A DNA stretch of 57,800 nt from Spirogloea muscicola (taxonomy: Eukaryota > Streptophyta > Zygnematophyceae > Spirogloeales > Spirogloeaceae). This document shows positions 7,880-53,040 of this stretch, piece after piece. The stretch spans positions 1 through 57,800 of the forward strand of contig WELB01000096.1 of assembly GCA_009602725.1 (NCBI GenBank). The letters are read 5' to 3'. The notes under the pieces are model-generated. The model was not told the DNA's origin and ran no database searches. It worked only from the letters and a program-made list of their open reading frames with translations. Both the position numbers and the translations under genes were made by a program. The number at the start of each line of letters is the position of its first letter. Positions within the stretch are counted from its first letter, which is position 1.

Positions 7880-7995
7880 GGCGGAGGATAGGCGACGCTG
7901 CCGCTGGCCGGAGGCGCGTGCTTGTGGGGGGAGACGGAAGTGCTACTTGCTGGCCAGGAAGGTGGGCGACGTGGTCGGATGCTGGGAGAGGAAAT

Positions 7996-8290
7996 GCGTG
8001 TATATTAAGAGATGGGGAGGCCATGTGTGGCCAAGTACAAAGGCAAGCACATTGGACAAATGTACGTCACCTGCTGCTAAGCTGACCCGCTCAGTAACCA
8101 CGAGTCAGCACATAGAGGTCGCTAGCTGACGCTCGAATACCGGACGGCAATTGACTAGCTCTTGTGCCAGCAGCTAAGGCTCGACCAGCTTTCTGATGCA
8201 GAGCATACGCCTGAGCTCGTTGCAGACAGGTTGACACTCGACGTCGCAGAAATGACAGATAGGCTGCCGGCATACCCATCTGGGCTGGGA
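7996..8290 (-). mobile_element. 5'-truncated non-LTR retroelement copy, family D (3' end)
   Basis: The minus strand encodes the last ~65 residues of a retroelement ORF (PAAYLSFLRRRVSTCLQRAQ ... SDLYVLTRGY-stop). A short tail follows, ending at CACGCAT near 7996. It is almost identical to the plus-strand copy at 35790-36080, so the insertion looks recent. Its 3' end faces the ZDS start codon (7879). Confidence 0.8.
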
Positions 8291-11200
8291 GCATATCCTC
8301 GCGTCGTGCATATCCCAGACTCGCTATAATAGAGAGGGGGCCGGGTGGCTTTCTCTTCAGGGTTTGGGATAATCCTAACCCCTAAACCCTACACCTTGTT
8401 TGGGAGAGCCACTTTCTTTGTGGGGGTGCTTGTGCCAATCGAGCCGGCTTGCCTTCTCGCACCACTGAACGCGCACGAGTGCTGGCGCCATCCTTGGCTG
8501 CCAGCCGCTTCTGCTTCTTGCTCGCTCCGTAGGTACTTCAGTCCCCCTTCAGCAGGTTACGTACATTTGGCAATGTGCTTGCCTTTGTGCTTGGCCACAC
8601 ATGGCCCCCCATCTCTTAATACACACGCATTCACCTTCAGCCGACTTCGGCACCGTTACCTCACTAGAGTCCCAGGGGTACGAGAGGCCCCCTTTCAGTT
8701 CATATGTTTGCTTGGTTACCTTAGCCCCTCTTAGACCCCCTTTTACTGTTCTTCTTACACAAACAGTGTACTGGCTTGCTCTTGCCTCTCTCATCCCATG
8801 CACACCGCGCGCCAACCTGCTCTTTCAACCTTTACCCCCCTTAGCATGGGGCTTCGCTCCATTGGAAGAGCTGCTTCTCTTTAAGCATAGGGCTTCATTG
8901 TGGATAGCCCCACTCTTTGCTCTGGCTTTTGGCTGGCAGTATTGGCTGACATTGGCATCCATGCATTTAAGCACGTCGCGTTGCCCTCTTCCTTCTGGCT
9001 GTCTCGCTCTCGCTCTCGCCGTCGAGTCGCCCCACTAGCACATGCCTCAAACCCGGCGCTGCAACTCGACTGTCCCATTGGTTTAGCCAGGGCAACCTTC
9101 GGCCTTCTTTGGCCTCATACAACAACCCTATCTATGCTACATCCTTTACATAGTAGTCGCAGCCCTTCAAGACGTGCACCCATGACATCAGTAAGGGCTT
9201 GACACCCGGAGATGCGGTTGCCTTCGAGAAGCAGGGTCCCTTGACTGAGGTGTTCCACGTTTTGGTGGGAGTTCACCTGGAGGTAGCGTTTGACTCCTCA
9301 TGACGTCATGCTTTGGCAAAGGGGCCGTATTGACTCTGAAATTGGCTCAGGTTGAAGGTGGCCGAGCAAGTCACGACGTTCTTCTGGGACCTTCCAGCAC
9401 CTTACCATCGGCCACTGGCGATGGGCATCCACATATGTCACAGGGGTCAGTAAACCTCGCTGTCCGCGCTGCTGGCCTCTCTACTCTGATCAGCCGCAAA
9501 TGTTTGGCAGTGAACAGCACCCCTTGAGGCTCCGTGCCTCAGGTGTTGTATCATACTACTACTTTCATCTTTCCAAGATGCTGCAACTCGCATTCGCTTG
9601 CGTGCAACACCATGCCCTTCATGCTTTCGCGGCAGCTTTTGACTCGAGCAGAGGATTTCCACTACTTGGAAGCGCTGTTCTTTCTCTATCTCTCCTCAGC
9701 TCGTTGCAACTTTCTTCTCTGACGTGGATATACCACGCGGCCTCTGAGCTCCCTAGTCTGCAGCACCTGCGTGTTGTACGTGTGCTCTTTCTGAAAAGGG
9801 ATGCTAAATGGTTGGAACGTCAGTGCTGTAGGATAGACGGCTTGACAGATTCTTGGAGAGGCTGCTTCCTCAAGAGGTCGACAACCTTAGATTGAAGTTG
9901 TTGATGGGAGGACCCTTCGCAAGAAATCGTTGGATGAAAAGAGAGTCAGCTGGACACCCTTGATGACGGGTACCTGGGGAGTATCTCACATTCCGGGGAA
10001 GGCCGCATAGGATGTGAGCGAGCGGGGGTTTTGATGATTCTTCCCCAACCCTCAGACCCCTGTGAGCTTGACCGTACATGCCGGTCGGCCCCATCCATGC
10101 AATGCCTTCCAACTTTTATTGCTTCGCCGCGTGCTTGGGCTTGACTATCGCTCGTCCTTATCACATAAATGGTGGCTGGCCTTTACAGCCGCCCCTGACT
10201 GTCAATAGCCATTATCCCCCTCCATTGTCTAGTCTTATGCCCTACACATACGTTTGTGATGTACTGAGAAGGCCGCATGACAACGACAGTGAATGACTCC
10301 GGATCATTCCACTTGCTAAGACCTTCCCATCCACCCTTCTCGGGATGGTACCAAATTCATTGTTGTGACAATCTTCCTCATCTTCAACGACCCCATTAAT
10401 CCAGTAAAAATGATTCCTTTGATAGATATGATCTTTAAAGTCAAACCCATCGTTGACCTCCGGCTGCGACTTTTCCGCCTCCCTCAGGGCCCAAGTTCAG
10501 TCTTTCAAGAAGGTGTATGGCAAGGAAGGCCGCTCGTATAGTCGGTGTAATAACAGCCCTTCGTAATTTTCAACATTGGGGGCTAAGGCCACCATTCTGA
10601 GGGGACACTTGCGGTCTTTGTTGACACTCCCAGACTTTGCCTGTTGTGCCGCTTCTATTGTGCACTAATTACATGCCATCGCTGTGGAAGCTCAGCTGGA
10701 CAGCCTATATGGTGTCTTTGCTGTAACGATGTTGCAAGAGATGCCTTGGGGAAGGCGGCCTGATAGGCGCTTGGAGTGGATAGCCACCCCACCGGGCGGG
10801 CGGATGGGACCAACCGTCCGCTTTCCTGGAGTCAGAGAAACACGCTGAAACTGTGGGACACGACGGTGTGGATCTGGTGCAGGAGGCGGCGACGAAAGGC
10901 AACCTTGCGAAGGATTCCATCGCTTGGAGACGTTAGTGCACATAATCGTTGCCTAGCGAGAAAGCTCTTTTACAGATTTGCAATGGCTGTGAAAGGCTAG
11001 CCTAGGAGAGAAAACAAGGTCCAGGGCAGGTTGGCTGGGTGTCGGCCCCAAGGGGCCGAGTGTGCTTTGAGGAGAGGGTCTGCCAAGGAGCATGCAAGCG
11101 CAAATGCAAGAGCTAAGCCCTTGGTTATTGGCCACAGGTACATTCAAGTATGTTGCGACAGCCGTAGCATTGCAAATTTTACATGGACGAAGGCGCGAGT

Positions 11201-14200
11201 GCCTGGCCTTGTGATGGGAACGTGATAGGGTGCTAATGTTGGTGGCTGGAGATCTTTCGATCCACCTGGTTATAGGCTGTCGAAGGGCTGATTTTGCATC
11301 TCAAGTTTCCTCTGTTTTTGCTAAACTCGTCTCAAGCTGCAGAGCTGCCATAAATGCAATGCGTGTATATCGAGTAGAAGAGTTCGGCTTGGCATTAGGA
11401 GATATGGGCTGCTTTGTAGTAATCCACATTCTGTTACGTTAGTTGCTTGTGTGTTTTCATCCTGTACGGCCGCGGTGGAGGAAGATGTTGCTGTTAAGTA
11501 CGTTGTCAACCCTGGATGTACGTTTGCCCAACGTGGGCGTACCAAATGCCAGAGTAGGACCTGCCTTCTCGCAGAGAGGCTGGAACATCAGCAATCAAGC
11601 AGAAAGCTGGACCTGCGACCGGGAGCATCAGAGTGTAAACGTTGTTGATTGAATCGCGCCGCAGACGAGTCGTGCATTTCATACAGACTGGACATTCTGG
11701 CCTAAAGTAGGGCGGAGTTACTGGCCAGCCCGTCGGGAGAGACGAGCGTGACAAACCCGAAAAGGAAAGGTCCTGCAGTGGGGACGTTTCAAGGGCCCGA
11801 GCAAGCCGTAGCCAAGCTTTGGGCCCACGCTTTGGGCCCCCAGCAGTACCGTAGCCACTCTTGCCTTGTCCTATCTTACGAGATCTAGCTGAATTTGCCC
11901 GTCTGCGTCCTCTGGACACGCACTCTAGCACTTGAACATGGGCACTACGGAGGCCCTTCCATCTGCAGCCTATGATGACAGTCAAGCTGGCCTTGAGTCC
12001 CCCATTGCCAGAAGAATCTGAGCACAGATCTTAGTACCAAACACCCTCCCATACTCTCAGCAAGGGTCACTCCGTAGTGAAAGCAGACTGTCAAAAATGG
12101 GGCTCTATATCTCGACTTGTGACAACGGGGTAGGCTTGCGCAAGCGCAAGCAGCAGTGAAAGGTGGGAGGACTTGCATACTTCGGCCAGCGACTTTGATA
12201 AAGCAATGGCACCTCATGGCCTGCGAAGGCTTACCGGCAGAAGGTCTGGAGCAGATTGCATTCGGTAACGGCAGTGTGGACCCACGCGGCCTGACGGCAG
12301 GAGGCGCAAAGGTAGAAGGAAGCAAAAAACAGCCCGCCTCCGGGATTGGTTCAGGTTGACGTTGAACAACCGGGGATTGAAAGTAGAGTTGCCCACCAGC
12401 CGGCTTTCACCACTCCACCTCTCTCATCCCAACCCCCCCACTAAGCTCCACAAGCGCCGGAACCGTCCGGCAAAGGTGGGGGAAAGGCCCTGGCCCCCGT
12501 TATTATCCACCCCTCTTTATTTCCCCATATTGTACGCTTTACTGGGAGTGTGCGCTGACATATTCAGTCACGAAAGTGCACACGTGCCTGGCCCCCGGCC
12601 CGACCTTTCCCACCAGCACCCGCCCCCCCAAGCACCGGCTCCTTGGCTTGCCCTCGCTCGAGCCACCACATTCTCCGGGCCTACTGCCGCCTTGCCTGGC
12701 CCCAACCACCGTCGCCTGCTCACTTGGCTCCCCTGCTCTTGCCCTTCACCCATCTCGCTCGGAGCATGCTCAGCCATGAACGTCCTGTGCAGCCATCCAA
12801 GCCCTTCGCTGTATAATGTAAGTCTCTCGTCTCACATTGTACTCCTGCATGCCCTGGCTGATACTCAATCCTCGCGTTATGGCATGTGCTTCACCACTGC
12901 TTGGAATAGCGTGGTGACCATAAAGTACTGTGCTTCGCCTCCAGCGCAGGTCGTGTCGGGTCTCCCTTAGGCCAACAGTCCTCCACTTCAATATCAATGG
13001 CAATGACGTTCACAACCTGTGTTCGACTGCCGACAGTATATGGGGATGCCATTGTACTTCCCAAATGCCTCAGAAATTGACTGCCCGATCCCTCAATCTG
13101 GTGGCCTCAGGTGCGCTCACGGTAGCAACGCATCCTTGATGTCATCCCTACAATCACCTTCAAGCGCAGTCCACCATCTCGATACGACCACTCAAAAGCT
13201 GCCAAGTCTGAAGATTGTATATTTGTCCATCACCAGACACAGCAGTGAAAGCAGGTCAGCGCTAGCTATGGCCTGCGGAATTGCTGGACTTGATACCCTC
13301 GCAACTTGCAAGCATCGTGTTTTCGTTTCCTCTTGTCAACTTTGCGCAAGCTGCAGCACATGTGCAGCCAAGCTGTGCAGTGTGTCGGTAGGAGCTGGTA
13401 AGTCTTGCTTGATGACGACTGACTGACTGCTTGCCGTGTCGTGCCACGTCCAAGCAGCAACATTGCTAATGCACTGCAGGTGGATGTACTGCTTGATCCT
13501 CATCGCCGCGCCTGTTCTCTCACTTGCAGCTTCACGGGGAGAGGAAGGCATGAGATACAGAGGGCACATAGGCAGAACTCAAGGCCTCGAACATCTTCAT
13601 GCAAATCGCAGCACTGTGTGCAAGCCAGTCTACCAGGCCTTCTCATCTCGTTGCAGAGGCTGTGCATGAGCATCCAGGGAAGACGTCCCCGTATCTCAGA
13701 CGGTGGCATGGACGTGCTAAGAGGAAGGCAAAAGCAACGCAATGGGGCTGCCGATGTTAGTGTGAACGACCAGGGTGGCTCCAGCAGTAGAGCAAGAGAC
13801 GGTTGGGGTTCACCTGAAGAGCGGCGGCAGCAGCAGAAGCGCCCGCCTACAAGATCCAGGAAGCGGTCCTAACAGACGGATTTTAAGACTGCTCATGCTC
13901 ATGTCCTATTCAAGCTCAAGTCGTTCTCGCGCTTGTGGATGCGAGCACAAGTACTTGCGAGCTCCCAGGCATGTTGACCACAGCCGCATGACAATCTAGA
14001 GCTGGTCGACCTACTCGTGGTGTTCGATATGCTGCACAAGGGCAGTGAATCCAAGTGCCCTGCCCTGGCCTTACGGCATGCTCCGGCATGAACGCGTGAA
14101 TGCAACTGCTTCTCACCTTTTACGATACTAGAAAAGCCACACTGCACTCTTCAGCGGGGGTTCCAGAGGACGCCATCTTGCAGCACATTGGCTGCCTGTC

Positions 14201-15152
14201 AAGCTTGCCAGTGTTTAGGCCAGCCCAGCTATGAGCTTGAGGAAGCAAGCATTCATGCATGCTTGCCATGAACCTGTGCAACTCGAGCATTACAAAGCAC
14301 TGCAAGTGTGGACGCTTGTTAAAACTGCAGAGAGTCTCACTTTGCATGCCTTCTCTGTAAGCGAGGCAAGGATAGTTGCTGCTACATTGTGGAATTTCCC
14401 CCAGGCTCACGTCTCACATTCACGCATTCCCGTGCATGCAAGTGTTGCTTAGTGCAGCATATGCTTGTGAGGAGATGCCAATCTGAATTCTGTTGGCAAG
14501 CTCAAGGTTGAGTAGGAGTCATCTTGGAGCAGGCAAGCAAGTCCCCGGAGTAAGATAAAATGTGCTTGAGGGACGAAGGAATGCGGCTGCTAACGGTACA
14601 AGAGCGGCTGGACTTCTAGGGGGGGCCGTACTGTTGGATCGCTGGCTAAGAACCGGTCAGCAATGTGGGTTCTTCAGGTCCCGACGACCCGCCGCGTGGT
14701 CATGCGTGGGGCTTGTGTGCGATGCGGAGGGGGCGGCAGCGAGGCGCTGGAAGCGGGGCGCCGTGGTGGCGGCAAGCAGGGCGAGCGAGCGGAGGCGAGC
14801 GCCGGCGCCGTAGCACTAGGCGCCGGGGCAAGCAGGCTGTCATGCCGCACGAGAGCCTGCAGCGAGAGCACCTGCCGCCCGCAGGCCTGCGGCAGAAGAG
14901 CCTGCAGCTGGCGCACCCACGGGAGGCAAGCCCGCGGCGCGGCGCTTGGGCTGACCCCGGCCGCGAGGCCCCGCCTGCCGTGGGCACGCCTGCCGGAGGG
15001 GCGATGGGGGCCCGTTGACCGCCGCGAGAAGGGACGGGTGCGGCCGTGAGCACGCCTGCCGCCGCGCGTGGTTGCTCCCGGGCGTGGCGCTGGGCCGGGC
15101 NTCACCCCCAACTCTGTGGCAACGCCCGCCCCTCTCCCCGCGGCCCCCCACC
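8291..15152. other. Long intergenic region, no gene recognised
   Basis: It contains a telomere-like string (CCTAACCCCTAAACCCT, about 8372-8390) and a plus-strand family D tail without ORF (about 8548-8636, same CATCTCTTAATACACACGCAT end). A TTGGAAGAGCTGC box lies at about 8862, and isolated hairpin repeats at about 10173-10191 (+) and 10986-11003 (-). The segment 14500-15150 is GC-rich and contains one undetermined base (15101); it probably includes the promoter and 5'UTR of the MYB gene. Open frames up to 204 codons occur, but none shows a family motif or convincing splice-compatible continuation. A Ser/Arg/Gln-rich frame ending near 13872 is the only one with mildly protein-like composition. 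Confidence 0.5.
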
Positions 15153-16510
15153 ATGAAGAGCAGCTGCAGCTCCGACACCGGGTCCTCCGCCAGCCTGCTC
15201 TGCGACGTGGAGTGCGACCTCGACTACGCCAGCCTGGTGGGCCACATCGGGCGACAGGTCGACGCCGCCGGCATCGCCAAGGGCACCTGGCTGCCCGAAG
15301 AGGACCGCATCCTCATTGCCTACGTCGAGCGCCATGGGCCCAAGGACTGGAACGCCCTTCTCACCAAAGGTACCCACTGCATCGTCACACTTTGAAGCGT
15401 TCTTACTCTCCCATTTGCGAACTTCCCTGCTTGAAGCAGAACGCTCGTCTTCGCTTGCCAAGCAAGACGAGGTATCGTCTGGCTATCTTCACCGTGGATT
15501 TGCAATCCAGGGGCGAAGCATTGCTGGTCATGTGTCTGACGATGTCCTCTGATCATATGCCTCGTCTACGTGCAGGCCTTCTTAAGCGAAACGGCAAGAG
15601 CTGCCGACTGCGCTGGGTCAACCAACTCCAACCAGGCCTGCAGCGAGGGCACCATGGCAAAGGCACCAAGCGATTCACCGAGGCAGAGGAGCGGCGGGTC
15701 GTCGAACTGCAGGTGTGCATCAGCCTTAGGATCGCGCTGGCTCGAGCTGTCCACGATCTGGCTTGCAATCGCCTACCTCGCCACTGCTGTTGCTGACGTT
15801 GTCTTACACTTGTGTACTCCAGAATCTCTTCGCCTCAGAGTCATGGTTGCTGATGACAATATTCTGGCGGCCCGCAGGCCACATTCGGAAATCGATGGTC
15901 CCAGATCGCCAAGCACCTGCAAGGCAGGACAGACAACGATGTTAAGAATTTCTGGAACCTCCACCTGAAGAGGATGGGCGTCGTTCGCAGGCCCAAGTCC
16001 TCGTCGGCTAGTAAATCGGCCTCCGCGGATGGCACCAGTGTCTCACGTTGTGCAGTCGATCCAGGGACGACAGCAACTGCGCATGTAGAGGAGTGCAGCC
16101 GTCGGGAATGTCTGCAGAGTGGTGTGGAGCGGCCAGCAGTGCATCCTCAGCATGCTCCCATACTCTGCTCGCAGTGCTGCGCTCCTCAAGCGTCCCCTCC
16201 ATGTGACGCCATTTTGGCATCTCCTAGCACCACAGCACCAGGGCATTGGGAAGTACCAGCCTGCAGCTCGGGCAGCGGGGTTACTACAACTGACAACGAC
16301 ATGCTGGTGCACAATGATTGGGACTACGAAGAGCTCTTGCATTCCCTCGGACTGCAGTACGAGGACACGAAGGTGCCACCCACACCTGGCGCCAACTTTC
16401 CATGCGCCGAGGGGAGGCAAGATCTGCTATGGCAGGAGCTAGAATGCTTAGCAGAGAGCAACTTCGATGTCCTGCCTGTAACGGGCGATTGGCAGAGCAA
16501 ATTCTGCTAA
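15153..16510 (+). CDS. R2R3-MYB transcription factor, 3 exons
   Basis: Exons 15153-15369, 15576-15712 and 15878-16510 join in frame to 328 residues. This is a predicted nuclear DNA-binding regulator. Repeat R2 spans about 43-97 with tryptophans at 46, 66 and 86 (GTWLPEED ... DWNALL ... CRLRWVNQL). Repeat R3 spans about 101-150, with the usual replacement of the first Trp by Phe (RFTEAEE, F106) and tryptophans at 125 and 144 ([23 protein letters not shown]). The DNA-recognition helix core of each repeat is intact. The C-terminal ~180 residues are Ser/Pro/Cys-rich with an acidic stretch ([13 protein letters not shown]) that could be an activation region. Introns lie inside or beside the two repeats, as in plant R2R3-MYBs. 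The target pathway cannot be told from sequence. Confidence 0.92.
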
Positions 16511-21086: not shown

Positions 21087-21439
21087 GGGAGGAGGGGGGG
21101 GGAGGGAGCGGACGTGGCGGGGGGGGGGGGCCAGCGCGGACGGGAGGGCGACGGGCAGCGGGCGGGCGGCGGCGTGGGCGGCCACCGCGGGGCCACGCGG
21201 CGGGCGGGAGGGGGGCTTCGGGAAGCGCGAGAGGCGCAGGCAGGCGAGCTGCTGCCTGACGGGCGAGAAGAGGAAGCCGGTTTCCAGGACAGAGGAGTTG
21301 CTCGCCGATCGAACACAAGGGGCTATGAAAGCCAAGAGAGAGAGAGAGAAGGCGCGCGGGGCGCATGAATTGAAAGGGAGGCCAATTCAAGCCAATACAT
21401 TGTTCAGGCAGAGTCGAGTTGCAGACTAAACAATGCTAC

Positions 21440-22300
21440 TAAGGTACCTAAGATGACATTAGTACCCACGGGTGAGCACAAACAAATCTGACAAGCTAAC
21501 TTGGGGAGCTGGAGCGCCGCCAAGGAGATGGCGGTGGCCGGGAGAGGCCAGCCCCGAACATCGCATGGACCCAAGTACGAAGGGGCTAGGGGGGGAAAGC
21601 GCTAACGCCAGCACACATGGCATGCGAAGGAGGGGCGGGGGGGGCTTTGTTCATTCCTTTTTCGGCTGGCTTTTCCAGCCCCTATCCTCAATGGGCGAGC
21701 CCCTTCTGTGAATGGCCAGCCCAGCAAGACTGGACAAGACTCAAGAGCAAGAAGGAACTGCTCGCCCATAGAGAAGAGGGGCTGGCAACGCCAGCCCCTT
21801 TATTTTCGACTTTGGACGATGTCCAAAGCCAAAGAAAGAGGTGCCGACAAGGAAAGCTACACAGCTAGACACGAGACGACATCAGTACCCATGGGTGAGC
21901 AGCAGCAAGTTCTCAGAGGGCCGACAGGCCCTCTGAAAACCACACAGCTGTGCTAGAGGCTACAGCGAGTGGGAGCTGTGTAACCCCGAGTCAGCAGCCG
22001 CAAGCCGGAGTAACTTGCAGCCGGGAAAGAGTCACCTCTGCGAAACTTGGACGCAGCAGCCAGTGCACGGCCTGGCCGCAAGTGCACTGCATGAGACAGG
22101 GCAAGCGGAATTGAGACGGAGAGCAGCATGTGAAGTACCTGGGCAAGCGCCGGTGGAGTTTCAGGCAGGCAGCTCACCTTGCGATCTCTAACAACAAGTG
22201 ATGGCCAGCCGTGCAAGTTGCTGCGAGAGGTCCAGCCACCGGCTAGAGAAGTAAGCTCTCCTAGAGACGGTGAGGGCTGTGAAATTGCTCGCCCACAGAG
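21440..22300 (-). mobile_element. Cluster of decayed retroelement 3' ends (minus)
   Basis: At least three C-terminal remnants lie on the minus strand. About 21440-21500 reads SDLFVLTRGY-stop. About 21740-21925 reads LLLTHGY-stop, followed by a tail with the GGGGCTGGC...GCCAGCCCC hairpin. About 21965-22150 reads HAVHLRPGRALAAASKF ... LRLLTRGY. A plus-strand hairpin is at about 21666-21683. These resemble the C terminus of the copy at 34876-35767. All three point their 3' ends toward the gap and the PAO gene. Confidence 0.6.
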
Positions 22301-22369
22301 GGTAGGGACTGGGTGAAAAGCCACTTCAGAGAGAGTGGACAGGTCCCAAAGGGTCAGAAGGCGCTTGAT

Positions 22370-24240: not shown

Positions 24241-24540
24241 TAGCGGAGGGGAGCTTGGCAACCCCGAGTTAGCAGCAGCAAGCTCCATAACTCAGTCCAC
24301 AGTTCTCCACCTCAGAACCCGCCGCGGCAGAAGAAGGGCTCGCCCATTGAGAATATGGGCTGGAACAGCCAGCCCAAAAAAGAATGAACAGAGTACAAGA
24401 AGAGGGGGGGGGAAGCCAGGCGAAGCCCTAAGGCGAAGCAGCAGAAATGACAAGCACACAAGAAAAAACAAAGCAGCTACTAACCACTCAGTAACCCCTG
24501 CTAAGCAGGCGCAGGTCGGAGCGGCAGAGCCCCCTGGCGA
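24241..24540 (-). mobile_element. Retroelement 3' tail remnant (minus)
   Basis: On the minus strand this holds an ORF end (GTTACTGAG box), the CTTGTCATTTCTGCTGC/CTTAGGG box and a GGGCTGGCTGTTCCAGCCC hairpin at about 24357-24375. It lies ~270 bp upstream of PDCD5, in opposite orientation to that gene. Confidence 0.55.
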
Positions 24541-27602: not shown

Positions 27603-28168
27603 GTACCCCCTTTTGGCGTCCCCCTAGGAGGTGGCAAGCGGCTCCTCATGGACGTCGTCCTAAGCGACAGCTTCCGGACGAAGGGCCCCACTACTTCTGA
27701 GACCGGCTATGCCGTGAAGGTGGCCGAACAGAAGAAGTTGCACAAGTACAAGGACCATCTGGCGGGTGATACCTTTTACCCCCTGGCCAGGGACATCCAT
27801 GGGTGGTACGGGGGTTGGTGGTCCTCGTTACTTTCGCTGCTGGCCTCTCAAGCTGACCAGCGGCGCCGGGACAGGGTGCAGCCCTTCCCGGTGGCTCGGC
27901 GCCTTTGGGTCTTGTTTCCAGATACCGAATGCGTTTATTTATGTGCCTACAGCGGTCCCAGGCGATTGCTTTGCATCGCCGGGCTGGTCGCGCCCTTGCA
28001 GCAGCCTCTGGTTTGCGCACTTCCTCCCCTCAGCTCATCTGACTTCCTACTGCTGACACGGGGGTGTTGAGGGCGCCCTGTCTGCTAGCCTTTGGCTCCG
28101 TCATGAACACCTGTATGCATCTGGCTGGCAATTTACAGCCGACTTTATAATATCAGCAGCCGCTTTGT
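27603..28168 (+). mobile_element. 5'-truncated retroelement, family A (plus arm)
   Basis: It starts inside the endonuclease domain (GVPLGGGKRLLMDVVLSDSF ... GYAVKVAEQKKLHKYKDH) and runs to LLLTRG-stop. A base loss near 27874 shifts the frame and a short deletion lies near 28016. The 3' tail with hairpin (about 28121-28140) ends at ATATCAGCAGCCGC near 28168, about 180 bp before the GLX2 start codon, same orientation. Confidence 0.85.
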
Positions 28169-34439: not shown

Positions 34440-34735
34440 TTTAAGGGATGGAGAGTGTATTGCGTGATAAAGGGGGGCCAAGTACAGAGGTGCACATCAG
34501 CTGCTGGGGTGGGCAGGGTAGACATAAGAGCGTCTGGTGACGGTAAGGGGCAGCTGTGAAGGCCAGCCAAGTGCCAGCTGCTGTGATTCTTTGTGTGCTT
34601 GTTTTTCTTAGCGCTTTCCCCTGGCCCCCTTCTCGTATTCTGTTCATCTTTTTTGGGCTGGCTTTTCCAGCCCCTATCCTCAATGGCTGGCTTTTTGGCT
34701 GGCTTCTGCCAGCCCCTCTCTTCTATGGGCGAAGA
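34440..34735. mobile_element. Nested retroelement tails upstream of lysA
   Basis: About 34448-34510 resembles the family D tail on the minus strand (GGCCAAGTACAGAGG), ending only about 25-50 bp from the lysA ATG. About 34548-34567 is a minus hairpin. About 34570-34690 is a plus tail (TTTGTGTGCTTGTTTTTCTTAGCGC, CCCCTTCTCGT, GGGCTGGCTTTTCCAGCCCC) matching 49120-49230. Confidence 0.55.
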
Positions 34736-35789
34736 AGGTGCTCGCCCATTGAGAAGAGGGGCTGGCAAAGCCAACCCAAAAAGAATGGACAATGTTCAAA
34801 GCCAAGGAAAGAGGTGCTGAAAAAGGACTACACCACAAAGTGCAAGACGGTGCAGAGGGAGATGCAGATGGCTGCTCAGTTTCCACGTGTGAGCAACAGC
34901 AGATCAGAGTAACTCGGAGCAGGAGAAGCGGCACTTTGCCGAGACCCGGAAGCAGCAGCCATAGCACGGCCAGCCCGCGCGTGGACCGCATGAGCCAAAG
35001 AGCGCTGCAGCGAGACCGCCAGCCTCATCCGAAAGACCTGCGAGAGGGAGCCGGCAGCATTGAAGCCTGGCGAACCCTGCCGCCGCTCGATGGCCTCCCG
35101 GGCAAGCCGCTGGAGGAGAGTCAACCAGCCACTGCCAAAGGCCCCGTGTACGTCAATGGCCAGTGTCGCGAAGGCATCGCCTGGAGGGTGGTCAGAGTAC
35201 TTGCGCTCCTTACTCCGAGCCGCCAGAGCGACCGCGTGCCCGACGAAGGTGCTCGCCCACGAGCGTCGCGGACTTCGCGGGGTTGGCCGAATGAACGCAA
35301 TCGGCAGTTACCACATCAGCGATAATGCGCGGACCTCCTCTGGGCGGGATGGCAACGAGGTCCGCGCGGCGGGTGTGAAGCTGTCCATCGGCGCCCCGCA
35401 GGATGGGCATTATCGTGGAGTTCTCCACTGCCACCTTGTAGCCAGCCTCCAGGAACACACCCTGCATGGCGTCTCGCAGGAGGTCGTGCGAACCTGTCCG
35501 CTCGCCCCCGTGTGCACAGCGGAGCATGTGGGCCGCCAGCGCCACAGGGTCATCGTGGCGGGCACCGCACTCGTACTGTTGGACCGCGATGAGGCAGGGA
35601 GGGAGGAGGCCGAGGAGCCGGTGGGCCGCCGTCCTGAATACCGCGTCTGGAATAGTCAGCGCCGCGTAGATTGGGAGTGCTGATAGCCACGACGCCGCCC
35701 CAGGGGAGGAGGCGGAGAGGAGCCGGGCGCGCCCTCGGGTGTCGTGCGGCGGAAGGAGCTCCACCAACTGGTCGTAGGCCGCTTTGTCC
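34736..35789 (-). mobile_element. Decayed retroelement, family C (RLE domain, minus)
   Basis: On the minus strand 35767-35215 encodes the CCHC knuckle (CGARHDDPVALAAHMLRC), the GSHDLLRDAM motif and the endonuclease core (RRADLVAIPPRGGPRIIADV VT). The frame then shifts near 35215 and continues to 34876 (KYSDHPPGDAF, IDVHGAFGSGW, HAVHARAGRAMAAASGS, SYSDLLLLTRGN). The tail below it carries the GGCTTTGAACATTGTCCATTC box and a GGTTGGCTTTGCCAGCCCC hairpin. One frameshift and the altered last residue suggest an inactive copy. Confidence 0.8.
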
Positions 35790-36376
35790 AGATGGGTATG
35801 CCGGCAGCCTATCTGTCATTTCTGCGACGTCGAGTGTCAACCTGTCCGCAACGAGCTCAGGCGTATGCTCTGCATCAGAAAGCTGGTCGAGCCTTAGCTG
35901 CTGGCACAAGAGCTAGTCAATTGCCGTCCGGTATTCGAGCGTCAGCTAGCGACCTCTATGTGCTGACTCGTGGTTACTGAGCGGGTCAGCTTAGCAGCAG
36001 GTGACGTACATTTGTCCAATGTGCTTGCCTTTGTACTTGGCCACACATGGCCTCCCCATCTCTTAATATACACGCATTTTCTTTGTCCACAGGCGAGCTC
36101 CTTTCTTCAAAGAAGAAAGTGCTCGCCCATTGAGAATAGGGGCTGGAACAACCAGCCCGAAAAAGAATCTTCAATGGGCGAGCACTTTCTTCTCCAGCCC
36201 AGTCCATCGCTCGGTACACCCCGTCGCCCCTGGAGCCTGGAGCCTGGAGCCTGGAGCCTGGAGCCTGGCTTTGTAGTGTAGTCCACTTCCGGCACTTCTT
36301 TCTTTGGCTTTGGACATTGTCCATTCTTTTTGGGTTGGCTTTGCCAGCCCCGCTTCTCTGTGGGCGAGCTCTTCGT
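35790..36376 (+). mobile_element. Family D 3' end plus family C-type tail (plus arm)
   Basis: 35790-35980 encodes MPAAYLSFLRRRVSTCPQRA ... SDLYVLTRGY-stop, nearly identical to 7996-8290. The D tail ends at CACGCAT (36077). It is followed by hairpin fragments in both orientations (36126-36165), and then a family C-type tail (about 36295-36372: CTTTGGACATTGTCCATTC, GGTTGGCTTTGCCAGCCCC). The whole meets family C at 35789/35790 with the two truncated 5' ends abutting. Confidence 0.75.
36229..36270. repeat. Tandem repeat, 7-bp unit CTGGAGC (about 6 copies)
   Basis: Perfect head-to-tail copies lie within the retroelement debris upstream of the 36.5-kb gene. Confidence 0.9.
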
Positions 36377-39335: not shown

Positions 39336-39384
39336 GGCTTCTTGAAGTGAAAGTGCTTCGCCCGAGTGACACTCCTCCCCCCGC

Positions 39385-39868
39385 CCCATTACTTCTGAGA
39401 CCGGCTATGCCGTGAAGGTGGCCGAACAGAAGAAGTTGAGCAAGTACAAGGACCACCCGGCGGGTGATACCTTTAACCCCCTGGCCATGGACATCCATGG
39501 GTGTTACGGGGGTTGGTGGTCCTCGTTACTCTCGCTGCTGGCCTCTCAAGCTGACCAGCGGCGCCGGGAACAGGGTGCAGCCCTTCCCGGTGGCTCGGTG
39601 CCTGTGGGTCTTGTGTCCTGCTACCGGATGCGTCTGTCCATGTGCCTACAGCGGTCCCAGGCGATTGCTTTGCATCGCCGGGCTGGTCGCGCCCTTGCAG
39701 CAGCCTCTGGTCTGCGCAGTGGGGTTGCTCTTCCTCCCCTCAGCTCATCTGACTTCGTACTGCTGACACGGGGGTATTGAGGGCGCCCTGTCTGCCTAGC
39801 CTTTGGTTCCGTCATGAACACCTGTATGCATCTGGCTGGCAGTTTACTGCCGATTCTTTAATATCAGC
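39385..39868 (+). mobile_element. 5'-truncated retroelement, family A
   Basis: It begins in the endonuclease region (TSETGYAVKVAEQKKLSKYKD) and is open to SSSDFVLLTRGY-stop at 39780. The 3' tail and hairpin (about 39833-39851) end at ATATCAG near 39868. It lies ~105 bp upstream of the CAS start codon in the same orientation. Confidence 0.88.
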
Positions 39869-43580: not shown

Positions 43581-43582
43581 AC

Positions 43583-45280: not shown

Positions 45281-46258
45281 CAAGAGCATGGGGGGACCCG
45301 CTCGTGTGCATGATAGGGTGTGTGTACTGTGAGGGAAGCAGACCTGACAAGACTGAGGACCCTCCACTCAAGGGGTCAGCCATGTAGGGGCAGCTCAGGG
45401 GCAGCGGCTGCAAGCTGCTGAGGGATGAGCTTTGGTAAAACGAGGTCAACTGCGACTCCTGCTCGCCCACCATATAGCTGCCTTCGTCCTGTCACCGGAC
45501 CAAAAGTGCCAGTGCATGCTGAGGATCAACCTGTGCGCCACTGGAAGTAAATAGAGCTTCCGATGAGTGCAGCTGAGCTCAGCTGCACTGCTGTCCTTGC
45601 GAGGCTAGTCGTGGCGATTCTCATGGCCAAGCTTCCCTTGTGGAGCAGGGCCGTTTCTTGGCCATCATCTCGGAGAGCAGAGGGAGGCATGGATGCGAAG
45701 GCGCGGGCCATCATACATGGTGGCTGCCAATCTCCTCAGAGGCTGCAGGAGCTGTGGGGCTCATGGGGAAGCCGAGGCCGAGCAGATGCTCCAGGTGGCC
45801 TCTGCCTTCCACCCCTGCGGCACAGCACGGTGTCGCAACCCGTGGGGAAGGTAGGTGGAGGGTGGTGGTGTCGAGGGTCGTGATGCAGCTGACGAGGCAC
45901 AGCACCAGGCGGCAGGCGCGGCATGGCCAGGCGCGGCACGCACCCCAGGGCGACAGCACGGGGGCATCGGTGTCCAGCCAGGCGAGGTCGTCGGGCGGCG
46001 CATCGGCGACCGCAGGCCACGCTCCGTCGTCCAGCGGCTGCTGCGACCGCGGCGCCGCGGCGTCCTCGGCGGACTCGGAAGGCGAACGCGGCGCCAGCAC
46101 CGAGTCCGCCGTCGGCTCGGGCTGCTCGCGGTCGGCGCCGCCGAGGCCCGTGCCGCCGCCGCCGGAGGAGGAGGGCGTGATAGAGGAGCGACGCAGGCGG
46201 CGCTTGCGGGTGGCGGCGGCGAGATGGGCAGCGGCGGCGGCGGCGATGCGGCGGCAAC
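45281..46258. other. Intergenic / GC-rich, nothing recognised
   Basis: 46258 down to about 45700 is open on the minus strand in all three frames because of GC-rich, stop-poor sequence; it may be intron of the helicase gene or later exons not recognised. Residue composition is low-complexity (Ala, Pro, Arg). Confidence 0.35.
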
Positions 46259-46479
46259 CTGGAGGTGGCGGACATGAGGAGGCACTGGCAGGAGCGCGGG
46301 AGCTTGGGCGCGAGCGCCTGGAGGTCGGGCCGGTAGCCGTACGACAGCAGCAGGTCGGCCTCGTCCAGGACCAGCATGGCGAGGCGGCCGGCGTCCAGCA
46401 GGCCGGCGCGCAGGGCGGCCGTGAGGCGGCCGGGCGTGGCCACCAGCAGCTGCGGCGAGCCCGCCACCACGGCGGCCGC
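46259..46479 (-). CDS. DEAD-box RNA helicase exon, DDX56/Dbp9-like (fragment beside gap)
   Basis: The minus-strand exon, flanked by an AG acceptor at 46480 and a GT donor at 46258, encodes about 74 residues: VVAGSPQLLVATPGRL (helicase motif Ib region), LVLDEADLLLSYGY (motif II, DEAD) and CQCLLMSAT (motif III). The DEADLLLSYGY form, followed by a LP-rich stretch, is the pattern of the Dbp9/DDX56 subfamily, nucleolar helicases of 60S ribosome assembly. Motifs Q, I (Walker A) and Ia should lie upstream in the gap at 46637-47132 or beyond. The C-terminal RecA domain (motifs IV-VI) is not found downstream. This is either a gap-damaged gene or a pseudogene fragment. Confidence 0.75.
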
Positions 46480-46489
46480 CTGCCCAGCG

Positions 46490-46636
46490 CGCCAGGGCTC
46501 AGGGTCAGGGTTTGGGGTTTAGGCCGTGAGGCGGGGCGGCAGCGCACAGCCGGAGCGGGGGTTTAAGCCATGAGGCGGGGCGGAGCTGGCGCGGCAAGGG
46601 GGGGAGGGCTGACCATGGCGGCGGCGGGCATGGGGG
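46490..46636. repeat. Degenerate telomere-like tract and short duplication
   Basis: AGGGTTTGGGGTTTAGG at about 46505-46525 is TTTAGGG-like. The 23-bp string GTTTAgGCCgTGAGGCGGGGC (46518) recurs at about 46561 as GTTTAaGCCaTGAGGCGGGGC, about 43 bp apart. Confidence 0.6.
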
Positions 46637-47132
46637 NNNNNNNNNNNNNNNNNNNNNNNNNNNNNNNNNNNNNNNNNNNNNNNNNNNNNNNNNNNNNNNN
46701 NNNNNNNNNNNNNNNNNNNNNNNNNNNNNNNNNNNNNNNNNNNNNNNNNNNNNNNNNNNNNNNNNNNNNNNNNNNNNNNNNNNNNNNNNNNNNNNNNNNN
46801 NNNNNNNNNNNNNNNNNNNNNNNNNNNNNNNNNNNNNNNNNNNNNNNNNNNNNNNNNNNNNNNNNNNNNNNNNNNNNNNNNNNNNNNNNNNNNNNNNNNN
46901 NNNNNNNNNNNNNNNNNNNNNNNNNNNNNNNNNNNNNNNNNNNNNNNNNNNNNNNNNNNNNNNNNNNNNNNNNNNNNNNNNNNNNNNNNNNNNNNNNNNN
47001 NNNNNNNNNNNNNNNNNNNNNNNNNNNNNNNNNNNNNNNNNNNNNNNNNNNNNNNNNNNNNNNNNNNNNNNNNNNNNNNNNNNNNNNNNNNNNNNNNNNN
47101 NNNNNNNNNNNNNNNNNNNNNNNNNNNNNNNN
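46637..47132. other. Assembly gap (496 N)
   Basis: Run of undetermined bases ending directly at a long poly(A) tract. Confidence 0.98.
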
Positions 47133-47257
<125 letters not shown>

Positions 47258-47599
47258 ATCGTCGCCGCCGCCGCCGCCGCCGCCGCCGCCGTCGCCGTCG
47301 CCGTCGCCGTCGCCCTCGCTCCGGCCGCCGCTCACCCGCGCCCGTCACGCCGCCCTGCCCGGCCCTGCTTAACCCCGCCCACCATCATCCTTCAATCACT
47401 CAACCCACACTCCGTTGCCAGCCCCCGCCGCTCGCGCCCCCGGGCCTGCTCGTGCGCCCTCGGCGCCGTGCCCGAGGGACAGGCGCGCTCGCCCGCCTCG
47501 CGCGTCAGCCTGTCGCCTGTCCTCCGCAACCGCTCGACTGGCTGACAGCTCGACTCCACGCTGGCTCGCACTCCGATAAAGGTCACCGAGGTGCGCCAC

Positions 47600-49350
47600 C
47601 GGATCTGTGGCCCGGCTGCAGCCTCCCAGATGGCCATGCACGGGCCAGGACGGATAGCTGGCCAAACGCCTACTACGGCCTACTGCGGTCCGGCTTCCCG
47701 AGCTGGACGATATGCAGCTGTCGTTGGCCATGCTGACCAAGGCCATTGGGCAGCGGCCCCAGTACTTGACGCGGGCCACTCCGCCGCCCCCAGGGGCGTT
47801 GGCGGCGGATTTTGACGCAGGCATGGTGGCGAGCTTGGCAGCCCTGGTCCGCCACCAGGGCTTCCTCCAGTCGCCAGCCGCTATCCACCAGGCGGCGCTA
47901 ACCCTCAGCCACGGTGGTCTCGGCCTGCGCCCGCTCGCCCTTTCCTGCCGGGCTGCATACCTCGGCAGCTGTGCGCAGACGGCCGCCTCCGTGGCCCAGC
48001 GCTTCATGGTCCACGGCCGGCGTGCACTGGAGCAGGCGGTGGTGGAGGTCGACCTGGGCGCGCTGCCGTTCCAGGTGTCGCTTCGCTGCGCCCACCAGGA
48101 GCTGCTCGCGGCGCACCCGGACCTGGCAGGCCAGGCGGTCTCCTTTGCGCACCTCGCGCACACCGCTGACCTGCGCGTCCAAGCGCGCTTCGCGGCCGTG
48201 GTCGACAAGGCCGCCTACACCACCGCCGTGCTGCAGCTCCCCGAGGCCGACCTGCGCGCGCGCGCGAGACTTCAATCGGCCTCCTCCCCGGGGGCGGCGG
48301 CGTGGGTTCAGGCCCTCCCCATCAATGACGCCCTCACTCTCCCCGATGAGGTATTTCGCACTGCCGTCCACCGGCTCCTGGGATTATCGCCTCCATGTCT
48401 TCAGGGCGTGCGTCAGTTTGTATGCGGCGAGCGAGGGGCCGAGTCCGGGGAGCTAGCCGCTCATGCTCTGCGCTGCACCCAGGGCGGCGAGCGGACAGCG
48501 GCCCACGACCGCCTCCGCGATGCGATGCATGGCAGCCTGGTGGAGGCTGGCTTCTCGGTGGCAGCGGAGCACTCCGGCGTCATGCGGCTCCAGGAAAGGG
48601 CCGACGGTCTCCACGCCCGTCGCATAGACCTGGTGGCCACCCCACAGGCCGGCGGGCCACGTCTTCTCCTGGACGCGGTGACTACCGACGCATACGACCG
48701 CTCACACCCAGCCCAGTGTGCCACCAAGGCTGGGTATGCGGTCGCCTGCGCCGCTCGGGCTAAAGAGCTCAAGTACGCCGACCATCCGCGGGAAGACGAG
48801 TTCTTCCCGTTGGCAATTGACACCCATGGGGCGCTGGGCGCTCGGTGGCTCGAGCTGCTCACCCAGCTTTGCCCGTCACACCATCGCCCGTCGCTTCCGT
48901 GGGGAGCCGGTAGACTTTCCTGCGGCCCGGGTCGCTGGCGCGAGTGTACCGTATGCGCCTGGCCGTCTCGCTGCAGAGGTCTATGGCCCGCACGCTGCAC
49001 CTTCGTGCCGGCAGAGCCCTCGCTGCTGCCTCTGGCTCTGGCCAGGGGACCCAATCCAGGAGCCTAGCATTTCTGATCCGCGGCTGCTCAGGAGGGGTTA
49101 CTGAGTGATTCGTGGCTGCTTTGTTTCTTTGTGTGCTTGTTTTTCTTAGCCCTTCCCCTGGCCCCCTTCTCGTCCTTTGTTTGTTTTGGGCTGGCTTTTC
49201 CAGCCCCTATCCTCAATGGGCGAGCACTCGCCTTTCCTATAAGGTGACTATACGTAGTGTTCACAGCCCTCGCCCCCTATTGGAAGAGCTCACGTCTCTG
49301 TACATACCTTTGGGCTGGCCACTCACAGCCATTGCCTCAGATTTGGAAGA
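47600..49350 (+). mobile_element. 5'-truncated non-LTR retroelement, family B, with 451-codon ORF
   Basis: The open frame 47712-49067 contains the reverse transcriptase C-terminal linker (LSHGGLGLRPLALSCRAAYLGS) followed by a CCHC-type knuckle (CGERGAESGELAAHALRC) and AAHDRLRDAMHG. The endonuclease core RRIDLVATPQAGGPRLLLDA and KELKYADHPREDEFFPLAID are followed by a Trp-Leu motif. A frameshift near 48880 separates this from MRLAVSLQRSMARTLHLRAG ... RLLRRGY-stop (49101). The tail carries the CTTAGCCCTTCCCC box and three hairpins (about 49190, 49262, 49313), two of them followed by TTGGAAGAG. The reverse transcriptase palm domain is absent, as in typical 5'-truncated LINE copies. The RLE assignment follows from the CCHC-then-D...D-V-K order known for R2-like elements; the exact clade is not determinable here. 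Confidence 0.8.
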
Positions 49351-51300
49351 GTCCACGAGTGCTTGCCAGTTCGGCATGTTCATACCGGCAACGTCTGCAC
49401 AATGAAGAGCCCGAGATAGCATGATCCAGTACCCAGGTTGACGACTATTGAGAACACAGTAACAAGCTGTGCAGTAGTGATACCGACATCTACCAACCGT
49501 TGGCTGTCCACTCCGCTCCATCTATTGATCGAGAAACGTGTTTAAATCGAACCATAAGTCTGCCAGTAGCTCGAATTTAAGCCCAACATGCTTTGATTAT
49601 ACTCCGTTCTCATTCACGTTGTGTTTGTTGAATAGCACTTTCACTTCTCGATGTTCTGGCCATCACGGCAGCTTCATCTAGTGACTCTTGCCTGCTTGGT
49701 GGATCTTAACACCTGGCTCTATCTTCTCAGGCTCTACCTTCGCTTGTGTGTGCTGCACACAAGCACGTCGCTGCAGCACAAGCCCATTCTTCCTCTAGCA
49801 GCGGGTGCGATGGAAGAGGTTAGCCCCATAAAGCTTCAAGCCGATCCACATAGTAGCGACTCTTTCTTAAGGTGTTCTATCCGTGTTAGTGTCCATGAAT
49901 CTCAGTGCCAGGAGGTGGGCTTAAAAGCAGCCATCCTCAAAACTGGAAGTTCTGGGTCCTGCTTCTACTCCCGCCAAAGACTAGTAGGAAGATGACACCA
50001 CAAGAACAAGTCCAACACAATGATAATATACTGCAATACTAGTCTCTGAAACTGTGCTGCCTTGCTTGTGTTGTAATTTGCCATTGTAGCATATGTGTAA
50101 CTCGGCCCAACTTGGACTTGGACTTGCTTAGCTCTGCAACCTAACACAGCATCTGCATGGCTGGTATGCGTAACTCGTCCCTATCTTTTCGTAGTCGTCA
50201 AGCCTGCCAAGTATCGTATAAAAGTGGAACAGAGCAATTAATCGATCAGATCACCGCATGATTGTGCATCTTCTACATGGCGCCTGTTTGCTGGTGGCAG
50301 GAACCTGCAAATAGGACCTGTGCTGCATTTTTACGAGAGGGGAAATAGCAGACTGCCAACGCTGGCTGGCCTTGTCGCAACTCGTTTTAAGTGGGTCACG
50401 ACTGTCGCCCAGCAAGATGTGCAATCGGATGGGCACGATCCAGGGCTGCAGGCGGAAGGGGCGCAGTACTCAATGCAGTGAATCAGCTGGCGCTGGTCAA
50501 CGTGTCAAAGAGACACCCACCGGCCCAAGCCCACTTATGCACTTTGGATGCTCTCTTACTGCCGCCCATTCGCTGCCGACCCTTCGGGAGAGCTTTGCGT
50601 GCAGCTTTGCGTGAAGTTGTGAATTTTAACCTTGTATTTGAGCAGGCTATCAGCTGCTATGTAACAAAGTCGACAGGAGCTCGACAACAAGCATTGGCAC
50701 AATGCTGGGCGCACCGCAGGCGCACCGCCTGCCGCATGTGGGCATGTATGTTCTAGCTTCTGTTCGCACTCAGGGACTTAAATGTCAGGTCTTTGACGCT
50801 GTTGCGAGCACAGGTACCACCAATAAAGACGATGCATTGTAGATGTGTTGGAGGAGGGGTGGAGCCGTTGGAGGAGCTGTTGTGCCTGCAGCGCGGCGCA
50901 GTATGGGGGAAGGTGTCTTGCACGTAGGGTGGCCACGATGGCCCGGGCAAAGGCAGAGCACGTTCTGCTACTGCGTACACGCCTCCATGCCTGCAGACTG
51001 ACTGGACCTGCAGGCAAGGAGGCGCAGGAGGGGGTCACACAGAATTCGACCATGGAGAGTGGTGGCCCCCTGGACTTGGGCCGGCACTGCAGATGGGGCA
51101 GCTCTCGGAGTAGAGTACATACATGTTGATCGACAAGGTGCTGCCAGGTGGGGGACGAGGAGGAGGGACGTCTATGATCACTCGGTAAGGAGGCAAGGTG
51201 CTCCTTCACGAGAGCTCTTGCCGAAGATGGAGCTCTGGCAGATGCCGGCGAGCGGACAGGGCAAGGATTCCGCATCGCGGCGGAGGTCGTACTGGAAGGC
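49351..51300. other. Intergenic, nothing recognised
   Basis: Short frames only. The GC-rich part 50840-51300 is stop-poor on the minus strand but shows no family motif. Confidence 0.4.
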
Positions 51301-51304
51301 GAGA

Positions 51305-51590
51305 GGATCCGGCTGCTGAGATCAAGGGGTTCGGCTCTGAAAGCCAGCCGAGTGCAAACAGAGGGTGTATGCATGCATCAACACCACGCGCAGCCGCAGG
51401 CTGGGCAACAGGGCCCTAGCAGTACCCCCGTGTCCGCAGTGGGAAGCAAGAGGAGGCGAGGGGAGGAAGAGGAAGGCCGCTGCGCACGGCCAGAGGCGGC
51501 AGCCGGCACGGCGGTGCGAAGCAAGCGGGGGAGAGCGAGGGAGGGTGGCAATGGGGCTCGCGAAGGTGGAACCCCGGTTTTCGGCGAGCC
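51305..51590 (-). mobile_element. Decayed family A 3' end (minus arm of head-to-head pair)
   Basis: It matches 27252-27480 at reduced identity: 3' terminus CAGCAGCCGG, hairpin (about 51330-51349), ORF end in ACACGGGGGTACTG, and the basic/Ala-rich C-terminal region. It is antisense to the first ~80 codons of the open frame that runs 51352-52851 on the plus strand, so those codons are not retroelement protein. Confidence 0.7.
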
Positions 51591-52948
51591 GACGTGGGAA
51601 TCTGGAATTTCTCCGTTGAGCCCCCCAGCAGCACTGGTGCAATGTACGCTGCCCATCCGTCTCGGTGGGCTTGGTTGTCGCCCCTTGGTCCGCTTGTGCA
51701 GACCAGCGTACCTTGGCTGCTGGGCCCAGGTGGCTTCGTCCATATCTGGACGATTCCTCCTTGGGCAACAACGTGTGTTGGCGCCTCACATCAGTACCGT
51801 GGTTCAGGGGAGTCTGCCTTTCCAAGTGACTCTCAAAGCATGCCAACAGGACCTCTTTGCCGCATACCCGCCTCTGGTAAATGAGCCTGTTAGTTTTGCT
51901 GCCTGGGCTGACGTTTCTGATGTCAAGGCTCAATCGCGGTTTACCCGTGCTGCAGACGAGCAACCACTGGAGCATCTCCGGAGTCTCCTCCAAGGAGATG
52001 CTCGAGGCCAGGCTCGGCTCCTATCTGTTTCGTCTCTGGGAGCGTCTGAGTGGCTCCGCGCTTTGCCTTTGCATGCGGGCTTGCGGATGGAGAATGCTTT
52101 GTTTTGCGATGCTATGCGCCGCCGTCTTGGCTTGCCATCCCTGTGCTTGGCAGGGGTGACCCAATGTGAATGTGGGCTTATTGAGCATGATGCATTGCTC
52201 ATGGGTGACCACATGCTCAGGTGTGCCAAAGGCAGTGAGCGCACGGGCTCCCACAACCTCCTACGTGACGCCATGTATGGCATCGTCAAGGAGGCGGGAT
52301 ATCAAGTGGCGTTGGAGAGCACTGGGGTGATGCCCATCCTCCTCCGCAATGGGGTCCCTCGGACGAGGCGTGTCGATCTGGTCGGCGTCCCCCTGGGAGG
52401 TGGCAAGCGGCTCCTCATGGACGTTGTCCTCACCGACAGCTTCCGGACGAAGGGCCCCATTACTTCTGAGACCGGCTACGCTGTGAAGGTAGCCGAACGG
52501 AAGAAGCTGCACAAGTACAAGGACCACCCGGCGGGTGATACCTTTTACCCCCTGGCCATGGACATCCATGGGTGTTACGGGGGTCGGTGGTCCTCGTTAC
52601 TTTCGCTGCTGGCCTCTCAAGCTGACCAGCGGCGCCGGGAGCAGGGTGCTGCCCTTCCCGGTGGCTCGGTGCCTTTGGGTCTGGTGTCCTGCTACCGTAT
52701 GCGACTGTCTATGTCCCTGCAGCGCTCCCAAGCGCTTGCTTTGCACCGCCGCGCTGGTCGCGCCCTTGCAGCAGCCTCTGGCTTGCGCAGCGGGGTTGCT
52801 CTTCCTCCCCTCAGCTCATCTGACTTCCTACTGCTGACACGGGGGTATTGAGGGCGCCCTGTCTGCCTAGCCTTTGGCTCCGTCATGAACACCTGTATGC
52901 ATCTGGCTGGCATTTCACAGCCGATTCTTTCATATCAGCAGCCGCTTT
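51591..52948 (+). mobile_element. 5'-truncated non-LTR retroelement, family A (longest copy, RLE ORF intact)
   Basis: This is the longest family A copy; its frame is open from the junction to the stop at 52851 (about 415 codons). Order: RT C-terminal linker (LPIRLGGLGCRPLVRLCRPA), a spacer, CCHC knuckle (CECGLIEHDALLMGDHMLRC, Cx1Cx12Hx3C), GSHNLLRDAMYG, endonuclease core (RRVDLVGVPLGGGKRLLMDV V), Lys-containing helix (AVKVAERKKLHKYKDHPAGD), DIHGCYGGRWSSLL, basic helix (MRLSMSLQRSQALALHRRAG) and SSDFLLLTRGY-stop. The 3' tail has a hairpin at about 52902-52921 and ends at ATATCAGCAGCCGC, about 95 bp before the MTN start codon. RT palm and any N-terminal domain are missing. Confidence 0.88.
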
Positions 52949-53040
52949 CTCTGTTGAGCCTCTGACGTGAGCCACCTCCCCAGGGGCCAGCCCCCGCAGC
53001 CGCCGCCGCCGCCGCCGCCGCCGCCACTGCAGCAAGTGGC

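Follow-up and report, generated by a model that had tools for sequence, protein, structure and literature searches.

Non-LTR retrotransposons, which lack long terminal repeats (LTR), and which encode a restriction-like endonuclease (RLE) have been described as mostly target-specific. In the accessible part of a review of these elements, the targets named are repetitive or multicopy sequences, namely ribosomal RNA (rRNA), small nuclear RNA (snRNA), transfer RNA (tRNA), spliced leader and microsatellites (PMC4640811). The accessible part of another report describes the Y patch of Arabidopsis and rice, made of direction-sensitive C/T hexamers (TTCTTC, CTCTTC, CTCCTC) found at -100 to -1 of the transcription start site (PMC1832190). 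The present study concerns the initial 57.8 kb of Spirogloea muscicola contig C96, hereafter the window, in which the 3' ends of repeated elements lie just upstream of several genes and point toward them. The best-supported driver of the insertion sites is a strand-specific pyrimidine tract, which was observed at element junctions, in duplicated targets and at one empty homeologous site. RLE elements with such a target, matching pyrimidine tracts that lie on the sense strand upstream of genes, are the likely explanation of the pattern.

Element 3' ends upstream of genes in the window

Repeats were found by comparing the window with itself, about 42 kb of letters were read, and the assembly searched comprised 153 Mb in 471 contigs. 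Two families were distinguished by their 3' termini, ...TATCAGC(AGCCGC) in family A and ...TTAATATACACGCATT in family B, and inspection by eye yielded two further types, C/D (...GGGCGAGC) and G (...CCGCGCGCC). Element 3' ends were mapped with six tail probes, which left 33 ends after filters, and these were compared with eight gene starts: ZDS, GLX2, a gene at 36.5 kb, CAS, MTN, lysA, PDCD5 and MYB. A Pfam match backs the identities of GLX2 and of a further gene, PAO. ZDS, CAS, MTN, PDCD5, MYB and lysA were named by reading of the sequence, and the open reading frames (ORFs) tried for MYB and lysA gave no Pfam match.

A same-strand 3' end lies within 200 bp upstream of five of the eight gene starts, and an opposite-strand end within that distance of none. 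At 300 bp, the counts are five and one. Rotation of all 33 ends gave a mean of 0.41 genes at 200 bp (p = 0.0008) and 0.59 genes at 300 bp (p = 0.00135), and independent placement of the ends gave p = 5e-5 and 1e-4, respectively. The statistic is post hoc, because the window was supplied by the finding itself; the arrangement of 3' ends is nevertheless real, and chance is an unlikely source of it.

The initial annotation had placed same-strand ends about 117, 180, 105, 105 and 95 bp before the start codons of ZDS (ATG 7879, minus strand), GLX2 (ATG 28349), the 36.5-kb gene (ATG 36479), CAS (ATG 39973) and MTN (ATG 53041). Mapping put them at 114, 186, 109, 99 and 97 bp. Its end 25-50 bp before lysA fared less well: a doubtful remnant of a family B tail is present there (a 24-bp alignment with a score of 27, where 500 shuffles gave at most 25), and no clear end. 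The clear ends before this gene are three C ends, two of them antisense (271 and 313 bp) and one sense (315 bp). The minus-strand ends described upstream of PAO were recovered as family G tails near 21.3-21.4 kb, to which no distance can be attached, since the start of PAO lies in or near an N gap. Two of the genes said to lack such an end indeed do so, PDCD5 having an antisense C end 461 bp from its ATG and MYB having no element end within 800 bp. Long pure A or T runs adjoin N gaps in the window (47134-47256) and at loci L042, L045 and L046; they are probably gap-filling artefacts of the assembly, and can skew base counts near gene starts.

A pyrimidine tract at the insertion junctions

The sequences flanking the elements were examined on both sides for families A and B, and on the 3' side for C and G. 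The 5' flanks, which are never element DNA, provide the cleaner test, because the pyrimidine values of the 3' flanks include some element tail in all four groups. Across 46 A and B copies, the last 10 nt of the 5' flank are 0.75 pyrimidine, against a background of 50%; the fraction is 0.77 in the last 5 nt, 0.74 in the next 5, and 0.52-0.58 beyond 15 nt. Over the last 15 nt it reaches 0.697, whereas random flanks gave 0.501 (sd 0.023) with a maximum of 0.575 in 2,000 draws. On insertion, families A and B therefore place their sense strand on a pyrimidine tract. On the 3' side, pyrimidines make up 0.80 of positions 1-5 and 0.74 of positions 6-10 after 42 A ends, 0.87 and 0.60 of the same positions after 12 B ends, and 0.85 and 0.91 of the first 10 nt after 43 C-type and 18 G-type ends. 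The idea that this 3' run is wholly target-derived was rejected: locus L065 has three T's before the duplicated target, and very little variation is seen in the C-type tail ACTTTCTTC.

The copies share a common, precise 3' end and are truncated at their 5' side at differing points. Target duplications of at least 6 nt were found in 18 of 45 copies, where shuffled pairs gave a mean of 4.2 and a maximum of 10. A fixed 3' end, variable 5' truncation and target duplication, the marks of target-primed reverse transcription, are thus all present. Fixed 5' ends were considered and rejected, as the simplest reading of the common match start obtained with the ZDS and MTN queries is that the query copy itself is truncated there. 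About ten A copies, some 504-553 bp long, start within approximately 20 bp of each other (L014, L017, L021, L022, L025, L028, L030, L032, L033 and window 27613). They are perhaps a short non-autonomous subfamily, and the 486-bp query may have selected them.

These junctions bear on the possibility that insertion is random, that copies within genes are lost, and that the window is merely an extreme draw. The window was indeed picked for its pattern, and polarity is weak outside it, as such survivorship would have it. Random insertion would, however, give neither the junction bias nor the target duplications, and the rotation result at 200 bp also speaks against it, so that this explanation is judged very unlikely.

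Pyrimidine tracts upstream of genes

Tracts were defined as at least 9 pyrimidines in 10 nt, with element DNA and 18 nt past the element ends masked. Within 150 bp upstream of the eight window genes, 13 tracts lie on the sense strand and 5 on the antisense strand, an approximately 2.6-fold difference (14 versus 5 without the 18-nt masking). The corresponding densities are 14.9 and 5.7 per kb, compared with 5.5 per strand in the whole window. A sample independent of the finding was provided by 12 LHC genes, which are homeologous to each other; locus L052 was left out on account of an N/T run. In 1,696 bp covering up to 150 bp upstream of these genes, there are 39 sense and 11 antisense tracts (3.5-fold). 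Relative to the ATG, the upstream tracts are therefore arranged in a Y-patch-like manner, on the sense strand with few on the antisense strand. Such sense-strand enrichment accounts for promoter proximity and for much of the polarity without a dedicated recognition of promoters.

Filled and empty promoters among LHC homeologs

LHC loci fall into ten groups whose long alignments, introns included, show about 81-92% identity. Genes are found in two or three diverged copies (up to four for UBC), although letters were compared for LHC only, and the genome looks hybrid or polyploid from these alignments. With two or three diverged LHC copies, filled and empty versions of one promoter coexist. The LHC gene of contig C293 (L065) carries a sense A copy of 84-87 bp, flanked by CTCCTCC, whose 3' end lies about 155 bp before the ATG. 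In its homeolog on contig C33 (L064) the CT-rich promoter is uninterrupted and constitutes the empty site, so that this filled/empty pair shows the C293 insertion directly. In the third homeolog, on contig C63 (L060), an independent event placed an antisense element about 60-290 bp before the ATG.

The ATG could be read in 13 LHC genes. Two of them (L065, L068) have a sense tail within 300 bp upstream, and three (L060, L063, L068) an antisense element. Left out of this count are an A fragment of L066, which is weak and internal, and, in L063, a sense C end roughly 330 bp away; LHC loci with a clear ATG alone entered it. The 13 genes are not independent, because they are homeologs of about six loci. 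The proposal of the initial annotation, that an RLE-type element integrates at promoters or leaders with fixed polarity, can accordingly be divided: proximity and polarity are found in effect, through the tract target, whereas fixed polarity fails on the antisense insertions at LHC genes. Polarity is at most a bias.

Element families and their protein

Family A gave 2,044 genome-wide candidates at first look, of which 40 were scored. The copy before ZDS is matched over 328 bp with equal score and a printed identity of 100% at no fewer than 39 other places, and at one more with a slightly lower score; the copy before MTN is matched at 100% (rounded) in at least 16 other places. Both copies look very young. 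ORFs of 578-631 aa at L015:3-1895, L023:3-1895 and L005:1595-3328 reach the element stop and run off the end of the read, which is consistent with recently active families.

The C-terminal ORFs of families A and B are about 40% identical and have in common a C/H cluster and a D...K..KY block, which we take to be a zinc knuckle and PD-(D/E)XK endonuclease motifs. Sequence searches with the element protein gave no match. An AlphaFold2 model of the C-terminal domain has the order a-b-b-b-a-b, and its four best folds in the PDB are R2 retrotransposon proteins (probability 0.97-1.00, template modelling scores of 0.28-0.34 by query), unrelated folds scoring far below. The fold of this low-confidence model supports the RLE type that had been assigned to the elements, which look RLE-type as judged from their C-terminal domain. 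Two diverged C-terminal element ORFs, at 34942-35788 and 48204-49039 of the window, lie in inverse orientation with about 65% DNA identity; they are related to family A yet distinct from it.

The youth of the copies bears on the second proposal of the initial annotation, that the 3' tails have been co-opted. Tails that look TATA-like by eye (TTTAATATC in A, CTTAATATAC in B) would act as putative core promoters, and sense copies that drive a gene would be kept. Young copies have cut ZDS and MTN off from their former upstream DNA; transcription of these genes must therefore begin within the tail, begin beyond it, or pass through it. Near-identical copies are nonetheless too young to show long retention, and the C-type tail has no TATA-like motif, which makes co-option improbable as the source of the pattern. 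A variant in which the core promoter is a niche for RLE elements, the pyrimidine patch being recognised (perhaps with the aid of promoter opening), the 3' end facing the gene and the TATA-like tail becoming a new core promoter, is regarded as fairly unlikely. If true, it would mean that insertion beside essential genes is tolerated and rewires expression for each homeolog separately. A search with 4.8 kb of DNA for an allelic copy of the MTN promoter matched only itself and short stretches. The longest of these, a 75-bp sequence with the MTN leader and start codon (window 52990-53063), recurs at 97% in contig C1 (L074:1501-1575), where the surroundings are GCC-rich and no MTN gene was found in the 3 kb read.

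Element ends beyond the window

Elsewhere in the assembly, 54 distinct A/B ends had enough flank to be followed. Thirty-two run into repeats, including L065, which was flagged via its homeologs, and 22 into other DNA; most of the sampled A/B ends are not at genes. At L005, a sense xylulose kinase gene lies downstream with its ATG 122 bp away, and a later exon matches PDB 4bc2 at 3.4e-35. A sense RRM-type gene follows 246 bp downstream at L024 (Pfam 8.4e-4, just under the cut-off), and a copia-like ORF at L013 (rve 6.5e-6, under the cut-off). A further sense gene just past an end is the LHC gene of C293, which was reached from the gene side. L014, L020, L026 and L030 resemble gene starts by eye only, and Pfam found nothing in the stretches given. 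The 43 C ends include one located 56 bp before an F-box-like reading at L003 (Pfam 0.0085, under the cut-off, the two halves being in different frames) and another 277 bp upstream of the LHC gene of L068. On the antisense side, 46 distinct 5' flanks contained one recognised gene, the LHC gene of L063, which was found through the gene itself; this side received a less close reading, over the listed flanks of selected loci, while full translations were made downstream of the ends at 12 loci. A low-power scan of ATG context and ORF length, in its loose form, scored 14 of 55 sense-side and 8 of 45 antisense-side flanks, with 21-27% in random DNA and many chance ORFs.

These ends also help to weigh an active recognition of promoters, in which a protein or RNA would be guided to the RNA polymerase II initiation complex, to open promoter chromatin or to R-loops. 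Polarity would then follow transcription, and the pyrimidine tract would be a correlate or the final local choice. The window excess, which stands above the roughly 2.6-fold enrichment of tracts, and the independent hits on one LHC promoter in two of three homeologs fit this mechanism. It is nevertheless unlikely, given how many A/B ends enter repeats, a pyrimidine signal that holds over all flanks pooled, and the antisense insertions at LHC promoters.

A model for insertion and its weak points

The preferred explanation, a strand-specific pyrimidine target, can be put as a sequence of steps. Related RLE-encoding non-LTR families A and B, and probably the elements with C/D and G tails too, would use target-primed reverse transcription to enter pyrimidine tracts about 10 nt long; the element sense strand would lie on the pyrimidine strand, and the first nick presumably in the purine-rich strand. 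Y-patch-like tracts would cluster on the sense strand within the last 150-200 bp ahead of start codons, a sense bias that may hold genome-wide. New copies would land upstream of genes, in most cases with the 3' end toward the gene. Elements would also insert into each other's CT-rich tails, producing stacks, and selection removing insertions inside genes could sharpen the pattern.

Several observations weigh against this model. The tract counts in the window are small and uneven, PDCD5 holding 5 of the 13 sense tracts and MTN none, and GLX2 has no sense and three antisense tracts although its A copy is sense. Tract density predicts an approximately threefold enrichment, below the excess seen in the window (five genes versus a rotation mean of 0.41), so that accessibility, selection or the choice of the window must contribute. 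Polarity is mixed at LHC genes, where antisense insertions are present, and the place in C33 homeologous to the antisense site of L060 has no clear pyrimidine tract. Strong ATG context in the low-power scan was found in 9 of 55 sense-side and 4 of 45 antisense-side flanks, with 6.4-12.5% in random DNA, a result that does not establish polarity. Finally, the fold model is weak, with a mean predicted local distance difference test (pLDDT) score of 52.7, and the R2 fold matches have E values of 2.2e-3 to 3.1e-2, none of which reached 0.001.

Table 1. Positions of element copies, tails and target duplications in the window
Feature	Position	Strand	Basis or remark
Family B copy, 5'-truncated, 3' end toward ZDS (114 bp)	7993..8327	-	genome matches, end mapping
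3' copy of 6-bp target duplication CCTCTC, ZDS insertion	7986..7991	-	flank comparison
5' copy of 6-bp target duplication CCTCTC, ZDS insertion	8332..8337	-	flank comparison
Family G tail, then CT run and C-like tail, on the PAO strand	21330..21480	-	
Antisense C-type element, ending 461 bp from the PDCD5 ATG	24336..24520	-	counter-example to fixed polarity
Family A copy facing GLX2, its 3' end 186 bp away	27613..28165	+	end mapping; no clear target duplication
Doubtful B-tail remnant before lysA (ATG 34423)	34447..34500	-	score versus shuffles
Family B copy about 400 bp before the 36.5-kb gene	35788..36078	+	9-bp target repeat
C/D-type tail, 109 bp before the 36.5-kb gene	36290..36371	+	end mapping
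Family A copy before CAS, then CT-rich stretch	39383..39868	+	no target duplication of 6 nt found
5' copy of 15-bp target duplication (one mismatch), MTN insertion; start pyrimidine-rich	51608..51622	+	
Family A copy before MTN, encoding the putative C-terminal zinc-knuckle/RLE part of the element protein	51623..52945	+	genome matches, fold model
3' copy of 15-bp target duplication, MTN insertion	52946..52960	+	

Comparison with known systems

Should the pattern extend to the whole genome, an RLE nuclease with a simple preference for sequence would bring about insertions that are oriented, close to promoters and next to single protein-coding genes. Such targets are absent from those named in the accessible part of the review of RLE elements (PMC4640811). 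No report combining RLE elements with pyrimidine tracts before protein-coding genes was found in the open-access literature searched, most subscription journals lying outside this search. With pairs of filled and empty promoters, it can be tested directly how such insertions affect the start of transcription and expression.

Among the closest known systems are the RLE non-LTR elements (CRE, R2, R4, NeSL/Utopia and HERO clades), with which the families described here share an apparently R2-like C-terminal fold, 5' truncation, a precise 3' end and a preferred target. The families described here differ in their target, a pyrimidine tract that is short and degenerate and in many cases immediately precedes a single protein-coding gene. 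Another close system is the TRE5 group of Dictyostelium, which, in the accessible part of its description, are also non-LTR elements; they sit upstream of genes, preferentially at about 50 bp, in a genome dense with genes (PMC5006619). Targeting of tRNA genes was not seen in the window: its tRNA gene (2538-2617, minus strand), the sole Rfam match there at the gathering threshold, has no mapped end within 500 bp, the nearest one, at 1779, being more than 700 bp away. According to the same partial source, TRE elements combine an apurinic/apyrimidinic endonuclease (APE) with tRNA-gene targets, whereas here an apparent RLE is combined with protein-coding genes (PMC5006619). The plant Y patch, as far as the accessible part of its description goes, resembles the tracts found here in being sense-strand, direction-sensitive and located just ahead of genes; it is, however, a promoter feature and not a mobile element, and positions in the present study are counted from the ATG (PMC1832190).

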